This document shows positions 3,948 to 24,535 of a stretch of 64,000 nucleotides of DNA, in pieces; within the stretch, counting starts at the first letter, position 1; each line of letters opens with the position of its first letter. The position numbers were made by a program, and so were the translations under genes. Location of the stretch: NCBI RefSeq assembly GCF_003387075.1, contig NZ_QUMQ01000001.1, positions 5,394,001-5,458,000 of the forward strand. Direction: 5' to 3'. The notes below the pieces were generated by a model. That model did no database searches. It was given only the letters and a program-made list of their open reading frames with translations, and was not told where the DNA came from. This DNA comes from Asanoa ferruginea (GTDB taxonomy: Bacteria > Actinomycetota > Actinomycetes > Mycobacteriales > Micromonosporaceae).

Positions 3948-6900
3948 TCAGTGGACGACGAGATTGCCGCCCGCGAGCCTGATCTCCTGGGTCCGGGCGC
4001 CGGTCCACTCCGAGGAGAAGACGAGCGTGCTTCCGTTCCAGACGGTGATCGCCACCGAGTCGGCCGAACCGGGGTGGCCCCGGTCGGTCGCGGTCACCTG
4101 GAGGGTCAGCCCGCTGGCCACCGTCGTCGGGTGGCGCGGGTTGGTGACGTCTTTCAGCGTCGCCCGCGCCCTGAAGTCAGCCTGCTCGACGTGACCCGCG
4201 GCGTCGGCACCGAACGAGTCGAATGCCGTGCCACGGAGCTCGTAGGTGCGTCCGCCGCTGTGGAACTCGACGTTCGCGTACCCCGTGAGGCTCTTCCCGG
4301 ATTTGACCTCGAACGCGAAATCGGTGCGTGAACCCGGGCTAGCCGGATAGCTGCCGGCGGACCGGAGCGACCGGATGTTGCCGTCACCGGTGAGCCGAGC
4401 GCCATCCGGCTTGGCCACCTTGACCAGGGCGGAGCCCCCGCCCGTGTAGTAGTTGCCGACCACGGCCGTGATCGTGTGCGAGCCCCGCGACAGCGGTGCG
4501 CCGCACGACGCGGACCCGACGGTCGCCGCGCTGCCCAGCGGGCCGACCGGCGCGGTGCACAGCGTCTTGCCACCTTCCTTGAAGGTCACCGTGGCGTTGC
4601 GGATGTCGCCCGGAGCGTGGTCGTTGGAGCCGACGAACGCCGAACTGTCCCGCACGGTCGCCCGCAGCAACACGGTGGCGCCGTTCGCGCCGAACGCGAG
4701 CAGGTCGCCGGTGTAGGTCGCGTCGGCGTCCTCGGCCGTCACCGTGATGGTGAAGGAGGTGGTCCGGGCGACGCCGGTGTCGTCGGTCACCGTGACCGTG
4801 ACCGGGTAGGCGCCCGGTGCCGCCGTCGTGGTGCCGGCGACGGTCCAGGTGCGGGTGCCCGGTCGGCTGTCGTCACCCGACGTCGAGGCGACCGCCAGCG
4901 ACAATCCCGATGGCAGGCCGGCGGCGGTCGCCGACAGGTTGACGCCGGAGGTGTCCGGGTCGCTGGCGCTGACCGTCACCGCCGGCGAGAGCGCGTCGCT
5001 GTATTGCACGGTCGAAGGTGCGTTGTGCGACACCACCGGCGCCGCGTTGATCGCGATGTCGGCGTCGTTGAGGTCGAAGAAGATGTTGCCGACGGCCTCG
5101 ATCCGGATCCGCCCGTGCGCGGTGCCGACGTTGGGCAGCGTGACGGACTCGCCGCCGTCGTTGGGGGTGCTCTCGGCCAGCACGTAAGGGAAGGTGGCCC
5201 CGCCGTCGACCGACAGCGAGACGCGGACGGCGGCCGCGTTGACGGGAGCCACATCGGTTCCCGCGACAGCCCAGGTGACCTCCTGCGCGGTGCCACCCTC
5301 CACGGTGGACGTCGTCGCCTGGGAGGTGACCAGGAACGGCCCGGATTCGGGAGCGAGCGTGATCGCGGTCTCCGCGTTGCCGACCCCGCCGCCGCCCGGG
5401 TGCGCGTCGCGGGCGGTGAGCCGGAAGTGCATCGTCCGGTCATTGTTGAAGCCGACCCAGTCGGCCGTGGGGAGAAACTCGGAGAGGCAGTCGCGGATCT
5501 CGGGCGGCACGTTGGAGCCGCCGCTGGTCGGCGGCGGAGGCGCCGGGGGACAGGTGCCGTCGGCCGCGTTGGTGTTGCCCGCCGCGATCTGGGCCAGGTC
5601 GGGGAACACCCGCGTCGGGTTCGTCGACACAGCGTTCTCACCGGGCGAGTAGTACTCGAGCGTGTCGGTCGGGCTGACCACGGCCGCGGTGCCGAACTGG
5701 CGGAACAGCGGGCCGCTGGTCTTCACGTTGCTGACCAGCGCGGTCCCGGCGGTGCTGCCGCCGGAGATCCCGCCGCGGTCGTTCTGCTCCCACAGGTAGG
5801 TCACCGGGTCGCCGTCGGAGTCGGTGGCGCTGCCGGTGAGCGAAAACGGCGTGCGGACCGGGATGGTCACGGCGTCGGGGACGGTGACCACCGGGGTGTG
5901 GTTGCCGGTCTCCTCGACCAGGTTGCCGCCGTTGTCGATCGCACCGCCCTTGGCCGTCTCGCCGACGAAGCCGGACGCACCGGTGAGGTTGGTGAGGGCA
6001 AGGGCGTCGACGTTTGTCGCCGCCAGCGGGCCGCCGTTGAAGGCGACCTGGAACCCGTCGTCGGTCAACGCGCCCGCGCCGCCGCCGAACGCCGCCACGG
6101 TGACCGTCGTGCCGGCCGGTGCGATCGCTTCGATCGCGGCCTTGAGGTCGGTCGTCGTGTAGGTGGTGCCGCGCACGATCGGCGCGGAGTCGGTGCCGCC
6201 GAAGCCGATGGTGAACGAGTCGCCGTCGGTGTCGAACTCCCGCAGCGAGACCGTCTGCACCTCGTTGATCGCCGGCCGGCTCGACGTGACATACGTCGTG
6301 ATCTCGGTATAGCTGCGCTGCGACCAGTAGGGGTCGCTGTGCGGCTGTAGGTCGTCCTGGCGGCAGATGCCGGCGTACGCCATGATGGACGATCCACTTC
6401 CCGGCTCGACCGAGTTGGCCGCGCTGCGGTTGCCGCCCGAGCAGTTGAGCTGGGTGCCGTTGAAGGTGTGGTTGCCACCGAACTGGTGGCCCATCTCGTG
6501 TGCGACGTAGTCGACGGCGTAGAAGTCGCCGACCGGAGTGGGCAGGCCCGTGCAGCCGCGCGCCTTGCCGTCGCCGCCGATGACGCCGAGGCCCGCCACG
6601 CCGCCGCCGTTGACGCCCAGGCCGAGGTGACCGACGTCGTAGTTGCTGGCGCCGACGAGTTGGCCGAGCACGATCCGGTTGCGGTTGAGCGTGCCGCCGG
6701 CGCACCCGGCGAGCTGAGCGGGCGTGAAGCAGGCGGCGGCGCCGCAGGGCCCGTTGGGCTCGGTCGCCAACGCCGGGCTGTTGAGGTTGGTCTTGTCGGT
6801 GTCGTTGATCAGGACCAGGCGGATGGCCGTCTCGTCCTCGTAGATCTGGGTCACCCGGTTCATCAGCGTGACCTTCGCGGCGGTCACGTTGTCGGCGCCG

Positions 6901-19119: not shown

Positions 19120-20424
19120 ATGCACGACCACACGGAGATGCCAACCGTGGTGTTCAACCGCATCCCACCGACCCCGCCCGCCCCACCGGTCAAGCGTCGC
19201 CGCCGCCGACCGTGGCTGGTGGCCGCGCTCGTCGCGGTCGTGCTGTTCCTCGGCGTCGCCGGCTATGCCGTGGCGCCGTTGCGGTCAGCGCTGCCGGCCG
19301 CGACGATCGACCTCGCCCTGCCGGCGTCGATGAAGATTCCCGGCAGCGCGCCGCGGCTGTCCTGGCCCCGCGCCGGCCAAGGCATGATCAGCGTCCCCGG
19401 CATCGGCACGCTCGGCGCCTACGGCGGCGACAAGCCGCTCCCGATCGCCAGCGTCACCAAGGTGATGACCGCCTACCTCATCCTGACCGAGCACCCGCTC
19501 GACGCCGGCGAACAGGGGCCCGAGCTGACCGTCACCGCCGCGCAGGCCGCTGCGTACCCGGGCGAGCGGGGGCGCGGTGAGTCGGTCGTCGAGGTGCGCG
19601 CGGGCGAGAAGATCACCGAGCGTCAGGCGCTCCAGGCCGTGCTGCTCCCGTCGGCCAACAACATGGCCCGCATCCTCGCCGCCTGGGACGCGGGCAGCGT
19701 CGACGCGTTCGTCGACAAGATGAACGCCACCGCCGACCGGCTCGGGATGACGAACACCCACTACACCGACCCGTCGGGCCTCGATCCCGACACCGTCAGC
19801 ACGGCCCACGACCAGGTCATCCTGGCCGGCAAGGCGATGGCCCTGCCGGCCTTCGCCGAGATCGTCAAGCAGAAGAGTGCCACCATCCCGGTGGCTGGCA
19901 AGGTCAAGAACTACAACGAACTCGTCGGGCACAACGGGGTCGTCGGCATCAAGACGGGCTCGACCGACGAAGCCGGCGGCTGTCTCGTCTTCGCCGCCGT
20001 CATCACGGTCGCCGGCCGCAAGGTCACCGTCGTCGGGGCCCTGCTGGGGCAGCCCGGCGCCAACACACCCGTACAACTGGACCGGGTCTTCGCCGCCACC
20101 AAGACGGCACTGCGCTCCGCTGCGGCGGCGGTCGGCGTGCACACCCTGGTCGAGGCCGGCCGGCAGGTAGCCACCGTGCACGGCCCGCTCGGCACCGGCA
20201 CCACCGTGCACACCGCCGGCAAGCTCGACGTGATCGGCTGGCCCGGCCTGACCGTCAAGCTCGACGCCAAACTTCCCACGCCGGCCGCGAGCGTGGCCGG
20301 CGGCGCCGATTTCGGTCAGCTCACCGTCCGCCTCGGCGGCGGCAAGCCGGTTACCACCGCGCTGCGGACCAGCACGGCCATGGAGCCGCCGTCCACCTGG
20401 GACCGCATCCGCCAACACCGGTGA
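19120..20424 (+). CDS. D-alanyl-D-alanine carboxypeptidase (PBP5/6-type, S11 family)
   Basis: A 434-residue membrane-anchored peptidoglycan enzyme. After a basic N-terminus comes one membrane segment (residues 29-50), then the penicillin-binding fold with the catalytic S111-V-T-K114, S178-A-N180 and K278-T-G motifs, all intact. It trims the terminal D-Ala from stem pentapeptides outside the membrane. The C-terminal 100 residues form a beta-rich domain. Start ATG 19120 follows GGGAGG by 9 bases. The next gene overlaps its stop, suggesting a functional link. Confidence 0.94.
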   Translation: MHDHTEMPTVVFNRIPPTPPAPPVKRRRRRPWLVAALVAVVLFLGVAGYAVAPLRSALPAATIDLALPASMKIPGSAPRLSWPRAGQGMISVPGIGTLGAYGGDKPLPIASVTKVMTAYLILTEHPLDAGEQGPELTVTAAQAAAYPGERGRGESVVEVRAGEKITERQALQAVLLPSANNMARILAAWDAGSVDAFVDKMNATADRLGMTNTHYTDPSGLDPDTVSTAHDQVILAGKAMALPAFAEIVKQKSATIPVAGKVKNYNELVGHNGVVGIKTGSTDEAGGCLVFAAVITVAGRKVTVVGALLGQPGANTPVQLDRVFAATKTALRSAAAAVGVHTLVEAGRQVATVHGPLGTGTTVHTAGKLDVIGWPGLTVKLDAKLPTPAASVAGGADFGQLTVRLGGGKPVTTALRTSTAMEPPSTWDRIRQHR

Positions 20425-21413
20425 TCTTCGATACCGTTCCCGCATGTGGCGATCGGCGGGCGGCCGACACCGGAAAGGTCGCCTGGAAATACCAGCGCGC
20501 GGATGGCAACCCGCTGCTGAGCTTCGTGCCGCACGCCGTCGCCTGGCGCCAGGGTCTGCTGCTGCTCACCGAGCCGCAGCCGGGCGGCCGGCTCCAGGCA
20601 CTCGACGCCGACGGGCGGCCGCAGTGGCAGCAGCCGTTGGACGATGGACCCGGCCGCGACGTGGCGGCCGACGACGATCTCGTGGTCGCCGGCACCGCGG
20701 CGGCGCTGCACTGCTTCGACACCCGCACCGGCTGGCCGCGGTGGCGGTTCGCCCACGACGAGGCTCCTGGCACCGCGTGGGTCCGCCCGCTGCTCCTGCC
20801 CGACCTGGTGGTGGGCGCCGCCTACCGGCTCAGCGGCCGGGTCGGTGGCGGGCACACGAGCCTCGTGGTCGGGCTCGACCGGGCCGACGGCCGCGAGCTG
20901 TGGCGGTCCCGCACCGAAGAGCACGGCACCCGGTTGGCCGGCGACGCCGACCTGGTGCTGGTCGCCACCACCGAGGGCCGGCTGGCCGCGCACGACCCGG
21001 CCACCGGAGCGCTGCGCTGGGAACGCCGGTTCCCGCCCGGCCCGACCATGGCCGGTGCGGAGCTGAGCGTGCCGGTGCTGACCGGCGACCGGGTCTGGGT
21101 CGGCTGCGGCAACGGGCACGTCTACGGCCTCGACCGCGCCACCGGCGAGCAGGTCTCGTCGTGGCAACTGCCGCTGCCGCCCACCGCGCTGGCTCTCGAC
21201 GCCGGCGTGCTCTTTGTCGGCACCCACGACGGTGGCCTGGCGGCCCACCGCACCGACGGGCACGAGATCTGGTGGCGGCACACGCCGATGGGATCGGTCG
21301 CGGGCCTCACGGTCGCCGGCGACACGTTGTTCGCCAGCGCGGGCCGGCACGTCGCGACCTTCGACCCGGCGACCGGTGACGGCCCTCGCGGGTTGCGACG
21401 CCGGATCAACTGA
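20421..21413 (+). CDS. PQQ-binding-like beta-propeller repeat protein
   Basis: A 330-residue protein made of PQQ/BamB-type propeller blades, recognised by repeated units such as HCFDTRTGWPRWRF, VVGLDRADGRELWRS, AAHDPATGALRWERR and YGLDRATGEQVSSW. The GTG start overlaps the carboxypeptidase stop by GTGA. There is no signal peptide or membrane segment, and the frame enters a blade (AADTGKVAWKYQ) almost at once, so the first blade may be missing or the gene may be N-terminally truncated. Function unknown; propellers of this class are usually protein-interaction platforms. Confidence 0.75.
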   Translation: MIFDTVPACGDRRAADTGKVAWKYQRADGNPLLSFVPHAVAWRQGLLLLTEPQPGGRLQALDADGRPQWQQPLDDGPGRDVAADDDLVVAGTAAALHCFDTRTGWPRWRFAHDEAPGTAWVRPLLLPDLVVGAAYRLSGRVGGGHTSLVVGLDRADGRELWRSRTEEHGTRLAGDADLVLVATTEGRLAAHDPATGALRWERRFPPGPTMAGAELSVPVLTGDRVWVGCGNGHVYGLDRATGEQVSSWQLPLPPTALALDAGVLFVGTHDGGLAAHRTDGHEIWWRHTPMGSVAGLTVAGDTLFASAGRHVATFDPATGDGPRGLRRRIN

Positions 21414-21533
21414 CATCCATCCCCCGTTCGGGTGGGCGGAGAGAGCCGAAGGGACTGTCGTCCGGCCGGCGATCGCGCCGCGTCTTGTAGAGCGCACAGG
21501 AGATGCGCTCCTCTGCTCAGAACGGGGCCTTGG

Positions 21534-22478
21534 ATGAACGCTCGCCGGATCCTCCTCACCGCTTCCGCTATCGCACTGTTGTTGACGACGGCCGCCTGCG
21601 AAACCGGCCACGCCGTCGCCGCAGGGCTGCCCTCGGCTTCGGCCGCCCCCAGACTCGCGGCGAAGACCTCGCCAACGCCCGCACCGAAGTCGATGACCGG
21701 GCAGCTGTATTACGCCGATTCCGATCGCCTGGTCCGGTTTGACGGGTCCGGCGTGAAGGTGGTGCTGCCGGCGGGCGCTTACAGCGCGAACGTGTCGCCG
21801 GACGGCGCCCGGATCGCTTTCGTCGACGAGCGCGGCAATGTGGTGGTGACCGATCGCAATGGCCGTGAGGCTCGCACGGTGGCGCGGGGCGCCATCACTG
21901 CCGGCTATGAGCCGGCGTGGTCGCCGGATTCCACGAAGCTGCTGGTTGGGAAAGGCGGCGAGGGCGTGGCGGCGATGGGGATCGTGACGGTCGCGTCGGC
22001 CACGTTCACGCCGCTGCGGCACCAGCCTCCGGACGCCTTCCACTACCTGTGGTCCGCCGACGGCCGCCATCTCGCCTATGCCACGGGCACCTGCGGGATC
22101 GGGGTGGCTGACGCCGACGGTGGGAACGCCCGTCTCGTGCCGGGGTTCGGCGATCAGCGGCATAGCTGTGACCCCTACAGCGTCTCGCCGGACGGCAGGT
22201 TGGTCGCGGTCAACCTGCGCACCGGTGACCAGCCTGACGGTGACATCGGGCGGGACCTGTTCGCCAACGCGCTGATCGACACCCGCACCGGCCGCAACGT
22301 CACCCTGCCTGTCTCCGGTGAGATCACGGCGATCCTGTTCGAACCCGACGGCGACATCCTGGTGCGGACCAGCAACCACCGGCTCACGCTGCTGGCCCCC
22401 GATCACACCGTGAAGGGCCACCTCACCGAACCGGCGTCGGTCAAGGACTTCAAACTCCTCGCCTACACCCCAAGGTGA
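21534..22478 (+). CDS. Lipoprotein with PD40/TolB-like beta-propeller
   Basis: A 314-residue predicted lipoprotein: hydrophobic signal ending LLLTTAAC with the lipid-modified C22, a short Ser/Ala/Pro-rich linker, then a propeller with blades of the PD40 type (SANVSPDGARIAFVDERG, EPAWSPDSTKLLVGKG, YSVSPDGRLVAVNL). From about residue 55 to the stop it is nearly identical, without gaps, to the C-terminal domain of the anti-sigma-like protein encoded 1690 bases further on. The sigma gene lies between them. It probably sits on the outer face of the membrane; the ligand is unknown. Confidence 0.85.
   Translation: MNARRILLTASAIALLLTTAACETGHAVAAGLPSASAAPRLAAKTSPTPAPKSMTGQLYYADSDRLVRFDGSGVKVVLPAGAYSANVSPDGARIAFVDERGNVVVTDRNGREARTVARGAITAGYEPAWSPDSTKLLVGKGGEGVAAMGIVTVASATFTPLRHQPPDAFHYLWSADGRHLAYATGTCGIGVADADGGNARLVPGFGDQRHSCDPYSVSPDGRLVAVNLRTGDQPDGDIGRDLFANALIDTRTGRNVTLPVSGEITAILFEPDGDILVRTSNHRLTLLAPDHTVKGHLTEPASVKDFKLLAYTPR
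21700..22478 (+). repeat. Copy 1 of a 779-base direct duplication (PD40 propeller)
   Basis: Aligns without gaps to 23390-24168 at a constant offset of 1690 bases, up to and including the stop codon. A hand alignment of 660 bases (21771-22430) gave about 53 mismatches, roughly 92 percent identity, with the differences clustered in a few blocks. Confidence 0.9.
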
Positions 22479-22549
22479 GCCTGCTGTCTTCGACGACAGT
22501 GCCGCTAGACTCCCCAACCGCTAACGGCTCGACGTCGATCGGATCAGGT

Positions 22550-23077
22550 ATGCGTGGCCGCGACGATGAGTACGCCAAGTTTGTCCGAGCCAGGAGCCTT
22601 GCTCTGCTCCGGTCGGCCTACCTGCTCACCGGTGACCAGCACCTCGCGGAAGACCTGGTGCAGGAAGCCCTGGCGCGTACCCATCGGGCCTGGTCGCGGC
22701 TCCGCGAGACGGGCAATGCCGAGGCGTACGCCCGGCGGACCATGTATCACCTGCAGGTCTCCGTGTGGCGGCGGCGAAAGGTGACCGAGGTGCTGCCCGG
22801 CGACCTCCCCGAACCACTGGACCGGCACGGCCACGACGACGCGGAGTCGATCGCCCGGCGGATGACCGTCGAGCGGGCGCTGCGTTCGCTCAGCGCACGG
22901 CAACGCGCCGTCGTGGTGTTGCGTTACTTCGAGGACCACACCGAGGTCGAGGCGGCCGAGACGCTCGGCGTATCGGTGAGCACCATCAAGACCCAGACCA
23001 CCCGTGCCCTCGAACGGCTGCGCAAGCTCGTGCCGGAGCTCACGGATTTCCGGACCACCGAAGGGACCGGAAGATGA
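22550..23077 (+). CDS. SigE-family RNA polymerase sigma factor (ECF)
   Basis: A 175-residue ECF sigma factor. Region 2 reads YAKFVRARSLALLRSAYLL and GDQHLAEDLVQEALART; region 4 reads RALRSLSARQRAVVVLRYF and LGVSVSTIKTQTTRAL. This is the actinobacterial SigE family rather than E. coli RpoE. I prefer ATG 22550 because family similarity starts there; a longer form from the GTG at 22475, overlapping the previous stop, is possible. Its stop overlaps the start of the anti-sigma-like gene by ATGA, the usual arrangement of an ECF sigma with its antagonist. Confidence 0.92.
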   Translation: MRGRDDEYAKFVRARSLALLRSAYLLTGDQHLAEDLVQEALARTHRAWSRLRETGNAEAYARRTMYHLQVSVWRRRKVTEVLPGDLPEPLDRHGHDDAESIARRMTVERALRSLSARQRAVVVLRYFEDHTEVEAAETLGVSVSTIKTQTTRALERLRKLVPELTDFRTTEGTGR

Positions 23078-24168
23078 ACGACGACGACCTCCTGCGCGAC
23101 CGCCTCCGGCAGATCGGCGACCAGGCGGAGCCGATCGACTTCGTCGACCGGTCGCTGGCGCGCTCGAAACGGATCGGCCGCAACCGCAAGCTCATCTCCG
23201 GGGCCGCCCTGGTCGCGGTGCTGGCGTTGGCCGGCGGCGTCACGTGGCAACTCGGCCCGCGTGGGACGAACCAGTCCACGCCCGCCGTCATCCCGTCAAT
23301 AGCACCGTCCTTCACCGACCTGCCGCCTACGTCGCCCCCTCCGTCGCCGTCCTCGTCGAGCTCCGAGCCGGTGGCCGAGTCGATCACCGGGCCGTTCTAC
23401 TACGCGGATTCCGATCGGTTGGTGCGGTTGACTTCCTCCGACGTGAAGGTGGTGCTGCCGGCGGGTGCCTATAGCGCGAACGTGTCGCCGGACGGCGCCC
23501 GGATCGCTTTCGTCGACGAGCGCGGCAATGTGGTGGTGACCGATCGCAATGGCCGTCAGCCTCGCACGGTGGCGCGTGGCGCCATCACTGCCGGCTATGA
23601 GCCGGCGTGGTCGCCGGATTCCACGAAGTTGCTGGTCGGGAAGGGCGGCGAGGGCGTGGTGGCGATGGGGATCGTGACGGTCGCGTCGGCGACGTTCACG
23701 CCGCTGCGGCACCAGCCTCCGGACGCGTTCCACTTTCTATGGTCGGCCGATGGTGAGCATCTCGCTTATGCGACGGGTTCCTGTGGGATCGGGGTGGCTG
23801 ACGCCGATGGTGGGAATGCCCGTCTGGTGCCGGGGTTCGGCGGTCAGCGGCATAGCTGTGACCCTTACAGCGTCTCGCCGGACGGCGGGTTGGTCGCGGT
23901 CAACCTGCGCACCGGTGACCAGCCTGACGGTGACATCGGGCGGGACCTGTTCGCCAACGCGCTGATCGACACCCGCACCGGCCGGAACGTCAGCCTGCCG
24001 GTGAGCGGTGAGATCACCGCGATCCTGTTCGAACCCGACGGGGACCTGCTCGTGCGGACCCGCGACGGCCGACTCACGCTGCTCGCTCCCGACCACACCG
24101 TCAAGGCCCACCTCACCGAACCAGCGACCGTCAGGGACTTCGATCTCCTCGTACACACTCCCAAGTGA
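23074..24168 (+). CDS. Membrane-anchored anti-sigma-like protein with PD40 propeller sensor
   Basis: A 364-residue single-pass protein. Residues 1-38 are cytoplasmic and charged (DDLLRDRLRQIGDQAEPIDFVDRSLARSK), residues 39-58 form the membrane segment, 65-105 a Pro/Ser-rich linker, and 106-364 an extracellular PD40-type propeller. Position right after the sigma gene with ATGA coupling, plus this topology, suggests that the cytoplasmic piece holds the sigma factor. No ZAS zinc motif (HxxxCxxC) is present, so it would be a non-zinc type. The propeller is almost the same as that of the upstream lipoprotein. Confidence 0.8.
   Translation: MNDDDLLRDRLRQIGDQAEPIDFVDRSLARSKRIGRNRKLISGAALVAVLALAGGVTWQLGPRGTNQSTPAVIPSIAPSFTDLPPTSPPPSPSSSSSEPVAESITGPFYYADSDRLVRLTSSDVKVVLPAGAYSANVSPDGARIAFVDERGNVVVTDRNGRQPRTVARGAITAGYEPAWSPDSTKLLVGKGGEGVVAMGIVTVASATFTPLRHQPPDAFHFLWSADGEHLAYATGSCGIGVADADGGNARLVPGFGGQRHSCDPYSVSPDGGLVAVNLRTGDQPDGDIGRDLFANALIDTRTGRNVSLPVSGEITAILFEPDGDLLVRTRDGRLTLLAPDHTVKAHLTEPATVRDFDLLVHTPK
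23390..24168 (+). repeat. Copy 2 of the 779-base direct duplication (PD40 propeller)
   Basis: Partner of 21700-22478 at a constant offset of 1690 bases. The upstream parts of the two genes are unrelated: copy 1 is attached to a lipoprotein signal, copy 2 to a cytoplasmic domain, membrane segment and linker. Confidence 0.9.
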
Positions 24169-24250: not shown

Positions 24251-24535
24251 ATGACCGCAGGTGGAATCATCACCGCACTGATTATCGGTTTGATCATTGG
24301 TGCGCTGGGGCGTCTGGTCGTGCCCGGCCGCCAGAACATCCCGTTGTGGCTGACGCTGGTTATCGGCGTCGTCGCGGCGCTGATCGGTTCCGCGATCGCG
24401 CGGGCCGGTGGCTTCGCCGACACGGACGGCTGGATCGACTGGCGTGAGCTGCTTCTGCAGATCGTGCTCGCGGCTGTCGGTGTCGCGCTGGTCGTGGGCT
24501 TCGCCGGCCGCGGTCGGCGCAGCGTCACCCGCTGA
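24251..24535 (+). CDS. GlsB/YeaQ/YmgE family stress-response membrane protein
   Basis: A 94-residue protein with three hydrophobic helices and the family pattern of glycines (ALIIGLIIGALGRLVVPGRQ, VIGVVAALIGSAIA). Members are small transglycosylase-associated membrane proteins induced by general stress; their biochemical role is unclear. A very strong GAGGAGGAA ribosome-binding site precedes ATG 24251, and a SigB-like promoter and a terminator frame it as a single-gene unit. Confidence 0.9.
   Translation: MTAGGIITALIIGLIIGALGRLVVPGRQNIPLWLTLVIGVVAALIGSAIARAGGFADTDGWIDWRELLLQIVLAAVGVALVVGFAGRGRRSVTR

Follow-up and report, generated by a model that had tools for sequence, protein, structure and literature searches.

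A SigE-family sigma factor operon of Asanoa ferruginea with matched propellers on a lipoprotein and a predicted membrane anti-sigma factor

INTRODUCTION

Bacteria commonly sense their surroundings through ECF sigma factors, and the signals to which these respond are mostly unknown. Among the described systems that resemble the locus reported here is SigI/RsgI of Clostridium thermocellum and Acetivibrio cellulolyticus, in which a sigI promoter is reported to be activated by the sigma factor (PMC3413522). As we propose here, the anti-sigma factor of that system is a membrane protein that binds the sigma factor with its cytoplasmic part (a predicted role in our case) and carries an extracellular module of the kind found in exported proteins. 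However, its sigma and anti-sigma factors belong to other families and its sensor modules bind carbohydrates, and no lipoprotein twin encoded in the same operon and kept alike by gene conversion is described for it (PMC3413522).

A lipoprotein is encoded within the sigma operon in the SigE-CseA-CseB-CseC system of Streptomyces coelicolor, as it is here, and loss of CseA raises the activity of the sigE promoter (PMC6767563). Unlike the circuit predicted here, that system has no anti-sigma factor and is under two-component control; SigE does not act on the sigE promoter, and no propeller is described for CseA (PMC6767563). The present locus was rejected as a member: no cseB or cseC lies beside its sigma gene, whose neighbors encode a propeller lipoprotein and a membrane propeller protein. 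Another accessory lipoprotein is LpqB, which to our knowledge shares no sensor domain with its partner MtrB. LpqB acts on a membrane sensor, as the lipoprotein described here may do, but MtrB is a sensor kinase and not an anti-sigma factor (PMC5845573).

Class I anti-sigma domains (ASDI) are four-helix cytoplasmic domains, and in class II, CnrY-like anti-sigma factors, two helices wrap the sigma factor (PMC7406223). The short two-helix cytoplasmic part of CnrY recalls the helices predicted here at low confidence, but no extracellular propeller is described for CnrY, unlike the membrane protein of this locus (PMC7406223). Searches of the open-access literature for ECF sigma factors with propeller or WD40 anti-sigma factors brought up no account of such a layout, in agreement with the original prediction from the DNA, which knew of no system of this layout.

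RESULTS

Three-gene locus

The window, as we call the whole 64,000-nt stretch of DNA that was analyzed, lies in a 9.07-Mb genome assembled as a single contig. Three genes follow one another on the + strand: one for a lipoprotein, one for an ECF sigma factor of the SigE family, and one for a membrane protein with a single helix. The locus has the following features.

21456 to 21486, + strand: predicted ECF-type promoter; -35 TGTCGTCC (21456-21463), spacer of 17 nt, -10 CGTCTT (21481-21486)
21534 to 22478, + strand: lipoprotein with TolB/PD40-type propeller, 314 aa; lipobox Cys22, propeller at about residues 53-314
22550 to 23077, + strand: SigE-family ECF sigma factor, 175 aa; TIGR02983 and Pfam Sigma70_r2 and r4
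23074 to 24168, + strand: predicted membrane anti-sigma factor with extracellular propeller, 364 aa; 4-nt overlap with the sigma gene
23074 to 23187, + strand: cytoplasmic two-helix domain of the predicted anti-sigma factor, residues 1-38; conserved motif, low-confidence helix model
23191 to 23247, + strand: single transmembrane helix of the predicted anti-sigma factor, residues about 40-58; hydropathy 1.98 over 19 residues
23386 to 24165, + strand: propeller of the predicted anti-sigma factor, residues about 105-364; model pLDDT mostly 70-90, TolB matches

The original prediction had set a sigma gene between two propeller genes, with ATGA coupling of the membrane-protein gene to the sigma gene and with nearly identical C-terminal propellers, one of them on a lipid anchor. 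Each of these observations was confirmed: the coordinates agree, the overlap is 4 nt, the 21534-22478 product carries the lipobox cysteine, and the propellers are 90% identical in protein and 89.5% identical in DNA over 792 nt (dN 0.065, dS 0.263).

Upstream, the window encodes a BamB/PQQ-type propeller protein (20421-21413) with no visible signal peptide, the N-terminus of which may be truncated; the preceding gene, for a D-Ala-D-Ala carboxypeptidase (19120-20424), runs into the start of its gene. A small downstream gene (24251-24535) was left out of the system, as the open reading frames 3′ of the anti-sigma gene in six relatives are unlike it by eye.

The product of 22550-23077 scores 176.5 bits with the TIGR02983 SigE-family model (cutoff, 141.55) and is above the Pfam cutoffs for both Sigma70_r2 and Sigma70_r4. 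S. coelicolor SigE belongs to the same broad NCBI sigma family. The start at 22550 was picked from an alignment with relatives, and a second possible start is a GTG at 22475, which overlaps the lipoprotein stop. Assignment to ECF57, known for WD40-like C-terminal extensions (PMC8999054), was rejected, as the ECF57 repeats belong to the sigma protein itself.

Membrane protein as predicted anti-sigma factor

In the membrane protein, a cytoplasmic part of about 38 residues is followed by a hydrophobic helix, then by a linker rich in Pro and Ser, and last by the propeller. Its cytoplasmic pattern, LR..L..LAD...PVDL.DR.L..SRRIGR, is conserved, with M1, R26, and S31 invariant among 24 diverse members. 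An AlphaFold2 model built on three sequences has low-confidence helices at residues 3-17 and 23-41 of the N-terminal part. Pfam and NCBIfam gave no anti-sigma domain match to the protein, and a class I domain was rejected, as about 38 residues with two predicted helices are too short for four. The gene adjoins that of the sigma factor and the cytoplasmic domain is followed by a single helix, as in membrane anti-sigma factors. The gene overlap also suggests that the two proteins are coexpressed. The anti-sigma-like role that had been proposed for the downstream protein is supported by the conserved cytoplasmic domain and by the near-universal translational overlap described below, and residues 1 to 38 may be the part that binds and holds the sigma factor.

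Propeller fold

Both window propellers match PD40 of Pfam (40.4 and 34.4 bits; cutoff, 20.9). The nearest solved structures are TolB propellers, both by sequence (E = 6e-6) and by fold (Foldseek with the three-sequence AlphaFold2 model, E = 2.4e-11). TolB is the periplasmic partner of Pal in Gram-negative bacteria. With it (PDB 4r40 and 4pwz) the window propellers have the fold in common at about 20% identity, and nothing else; TolB proper (TIGR02800) was ruled out by scores of 33.8 and 30 bits against a cutoff of 343.15. Gmad1, the model for the LpqB propeller, matches weakly (25 and 23.8 bits; cutoff, 20.5). Stand-alone secreted propellers related to the sensor also occur in another actinobacterial family, f19 (L169 to L181), and no sigma gene was detected in their short flanks.

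Recurrence in Micromonosporaceae

A search of 301 Micromonosporaceae genomes gave relatives of the membrane protein (E ≤ 1e-20) in 83 of them, and genes were called by script at most of these loci. The sigma gene and the membrane-protein gene overlap by exactly 4 nt in 64 of 65 pairs, the exception being G072 (23 nt). This count leaves out a more distant set of paralogues with an 8-nt overlap and another sigma factor. A second propeller gene adjoins the pair at 18 of the 65 loci, upstream at 8 and downstream at 10. Both counts indicate that the layout exceeds chance. The upstream twins are those of the window, G072, G052, and G101, all of one genus, and of G081, G137, G186, and G254, of other genera; all ten downstream twins are in Micromonospora-type loci, a label that we use for genus g4 because the one relative with a species name was Micromonospora sicca and a genome with a matching lipoprotein lies in g4. 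The remaining 47 pairs have no adjacent twin, which argues that the basic circuit can do without the lipoprotein.

Within the genus of the window, the three-gene order is found in four of six genomes, the window included, and G018 and G088 lack the unit. Absence of this order from close relatives would have counted against the original prediction, but three of the five other congeners have it, one in a form disrupted by a deletion, as do four genomes outside the genus. The deletion, in G101, fuses the lipoprotein at about codon 188 to the sigma factor at about codon 29 (L041, reverse orientation, about 4880-4900); the junction is either a naturally broken operon or a misassembly.

The paralogous system of the window genus (L057, at G000:C1:1557419-1558429, L152, L153, and L154), which is also present in G020 (L099), pairs another ECF sigma factor, with the 8-nt overlap, with a membrane propeller protein that has a different cytoplasmic part.

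The lipoprotein N-terminus in the window, MNARRILLTASAIALLLTTAAC followed by ETG, fits a PS51257-type lipobox rule, with Cys22 as the lipobox cysteine. The rule holds for 8 of 8 upstream twins and 3 of 3 orphan copies (see below) and for 0 of 65 anti-sigma proteins. Six of the ten downstream twins have a lipobox-like cysteine, which falls within the strict rule in three and is slightly too far in for it in the other three; the remaining four have a membrane helix instead.

Promoter and orphan lipoproteins

The window genus, G081, and the orphans share a conserved block upstream of the lipoprotein gene, mostly CCGAACGGCCTGTCRYCC-N17-CGTCTT, with position and spacing kept. In relatives without an upstream twin, the same TGTCRYCC-N17-CGTC motif stands before the sigma gene. 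A looser pattern of the TGTC type is found at 24 of 31 non-Micromonospora loci (0.15 expected from shuffles), and GGCAACC-N17-CGTC is found at 34 of 34 Micromonospora-type loci (0.07 expected). The -35 element thus differs by clade, GTCRNCC versus GGCAACC (e.g., L096), with spacing and -10 element unchanged. The region 4.2 helix also differs consistently between the two sets of sigma factors (S142T, S144G, T148S, and R152K in window sigma numbering). This joint change is as expected if each sigma factor reads its own promoter, which would make it a natural specificity switch, but the correlation is confounded by ancestry because the two sets are two clades.

This operon has the one copy of the full motif, TGTCRYCC-N16-GCGTCTT, in the 9.07-Mb genome. 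Looser matching showed no genome-wide enrichment of the promoter pattern (34 matches versus 30 in the reversed control; with two mismatches allowed, 85 versus 132), and we therefore claim no wider regulon. Its conservation, its position before the sigma gene where there is no lipoprotein, and the single full copy suggest that the operon is probably autoregulated, and the regulon is probably very small.

Lipoprotein genes preceded by the window-type promoter also occur as orphans, in M. sicca, G008, and G043. Those of M. sicca (L007, about 5680) and G008 (L043) are 84% identical to each other. The nearest sigma relative in M. sicca belongs to the GGCAACC type, not to the window type, and no sigma relative was found in G008 at E = 1e-40.

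Propeller exchange

In the propeller tree, lipoprotein propellers scatter and twins pair by genome: the two propellers are sisters in the window (support, 100/100), in G072 (100/100), and in G081 (99/99). A joint clade of the window-genus lipoproteins and the two close orphans is rejected (p-AU = 1.8e-119), as is a tree that holds the window and G072 lipoproteins together (7.9e-55). The upstream promoter DNA is homologous among the window-genus lipoproteins and the orphans, and four of them begin with the signal peptide start MNA(I/L)SSR. Because the upstream DNA and several of the signal peptides are homologous, the lipoprotein gene seems to be older than the similarity of its propeller.

Differences between the window twins are patchy, with a variance along the gene that exceeds that of shuffles both for all codons (P = 5e-5) and for synonymous-comparable codons (P = 0.0025). 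Patchiness beyond chance is also seen in the G072 and G081 pairs and is not seen in the G052 pair.

In Micromonospora-type genomes, whole propellers have also been replaced. In such cases, the sigma factors are 91 to 97% identical and the N-termini of the membrane proteins 89 to 100% identical, with propellers at 27 to 29%. Between G045 and G082, for example, identity is 91% for the sigma factor, 95% for the cytoplasmic and membrane part, and 91% for the downstream lipoprotein, with 29% for the anti-sigma propeller; DNA identity drops from about 0.93 to about 0.5 in the propeller stretch and recovers to 0.86 to 0.97 in the lipoprotein gene. The replaced anti-sigma propellers of G082, G122, G235, G257, and G301 cluster with lipoprotein propellers (100/100). 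The tree, the mosaic pattern, and this sensor swap in Micromonospora favor gene conversion or cassette exchange, and its repeated occurrence is the best explanation that we can offer for the near identity of the twins, although some of the genome-wise pairs could stem from independent recent duplications.

In G235 (L135), the anti-sigma factor carries the lipoprotein-type propeller and no lipoprotein gene adjoins it, a state that is expected if recombination between twins deleted the intervening stretch.

DISCUSSION

On balance, the comparisons make it fairly probable that this locus encodes an autoregulated ECF/anti-sigma circuit, the extracellular sensor of which is an exchangeable cassette that is common to a coexpressed lipoprotein. 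The cotranslated membrane protein would hold the SigE-family sigma factor through its short cytoplasmic domain of two helices, and the TolB-like propeller of that protein, the fold of which is predicted, may sense a signal outside the cell. Once freed, the sigma factor would act on its own operon through the TGTCRYCC-N17-CGTC promoter predicted from conservation, and levels of the lipoprotein, the sigma factor, and the anti-sigma factor would then climb together. Because the same propeller is displayed on the same membrane face, the lipoprotein would most likely handle the same ligand or partner as the anti-sigma sensor, and its rise may dampen or adjust the response, with the lipoprotein serving as a ligand sink or as a propeller partner. 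Repeated copying of DNA between the two genes would keep the propellers alike within a genome.

Cotranscription and the matched sensors speak for such a tuning role. We put forward only tentatively, as somewhat unlikely, the further idea that a matched sensor/lipoprotein pair signals by propeller-propeller contact or by competition for one ligand, that gene conversion keeps the pair matched, and that a cassette swap in either gene would change the specificity of the circuit.

The lipoprotein might instead be the output, in an RsgI-like arrangement: a useful ligand-binding surface product, of which the anti-sigma factor carries a copy in order to sense the ligand, with no regulatory role for the lipoprotein itself. 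This is possible but rather doubtful. The orphans with the same promoter appear to speak for output or for a freely moving function, and output fits them better than a dedicated regulator would; the lipoprotein gene is also the first one driven by the window promoter, which has no other full copy in the genome, and stand-alone exported propellers without a sigma gene exist outside the family. However, most sigma/anti-sigma pairs have no twin nearby and hence no output gene beside the circuit, and four of the Micromonospora twins are membrane anchored and are not lipoproteins.

An unlikely reading is that of a simple, recent duplication with no functional meaning, in which each genome separately made its own copy of the anti-sigma propeller and joined it to a signal peptide, with twins that will diverge further. 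It would account for the pairing by genome in the tree and for a divergence of only about 10% in DNA between the window twins. However, the shared promoter DNA and the common start of four of the lipoproteins point to an older lipoprotein gene, the divergence is patchy at synonymous sites too, and upstream and downstream twins occur in several genera. A very unlikely reading is that the membrane protein has no anti-sigma function, with the sigma factor under transcriptional control only and the overlap a matter of operon packing. In its favor, anti-sigma models of Pfam and NCBIfam do not match, and S. coelicolor SigE, the family namesake, is controlled in that way and has no anti-sigma factor (PMC6767563). 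Against it, the whole family keeps the cytoplasmic domain and an overlap of exactly 4 nt, even where the propeller was exchanged, and a sigma factor that reads its own promoter would be uncontrolled unless inhibited.

The circuit that we favor, with its exchangeable sensor cassette, has consequences for how such systems may be studied. The sensor domain appears also to be made as a separate surface protein by the same operon, so that its ligand could be sought with the purified lipoprotein. The natural domain swaps would likewise provide a test of whether sensors and sigma-binding parts are interchangeable. If this reading is true, the locus would clearly illustrate how a bacterial receptor and its anchored twin evolve in concert.
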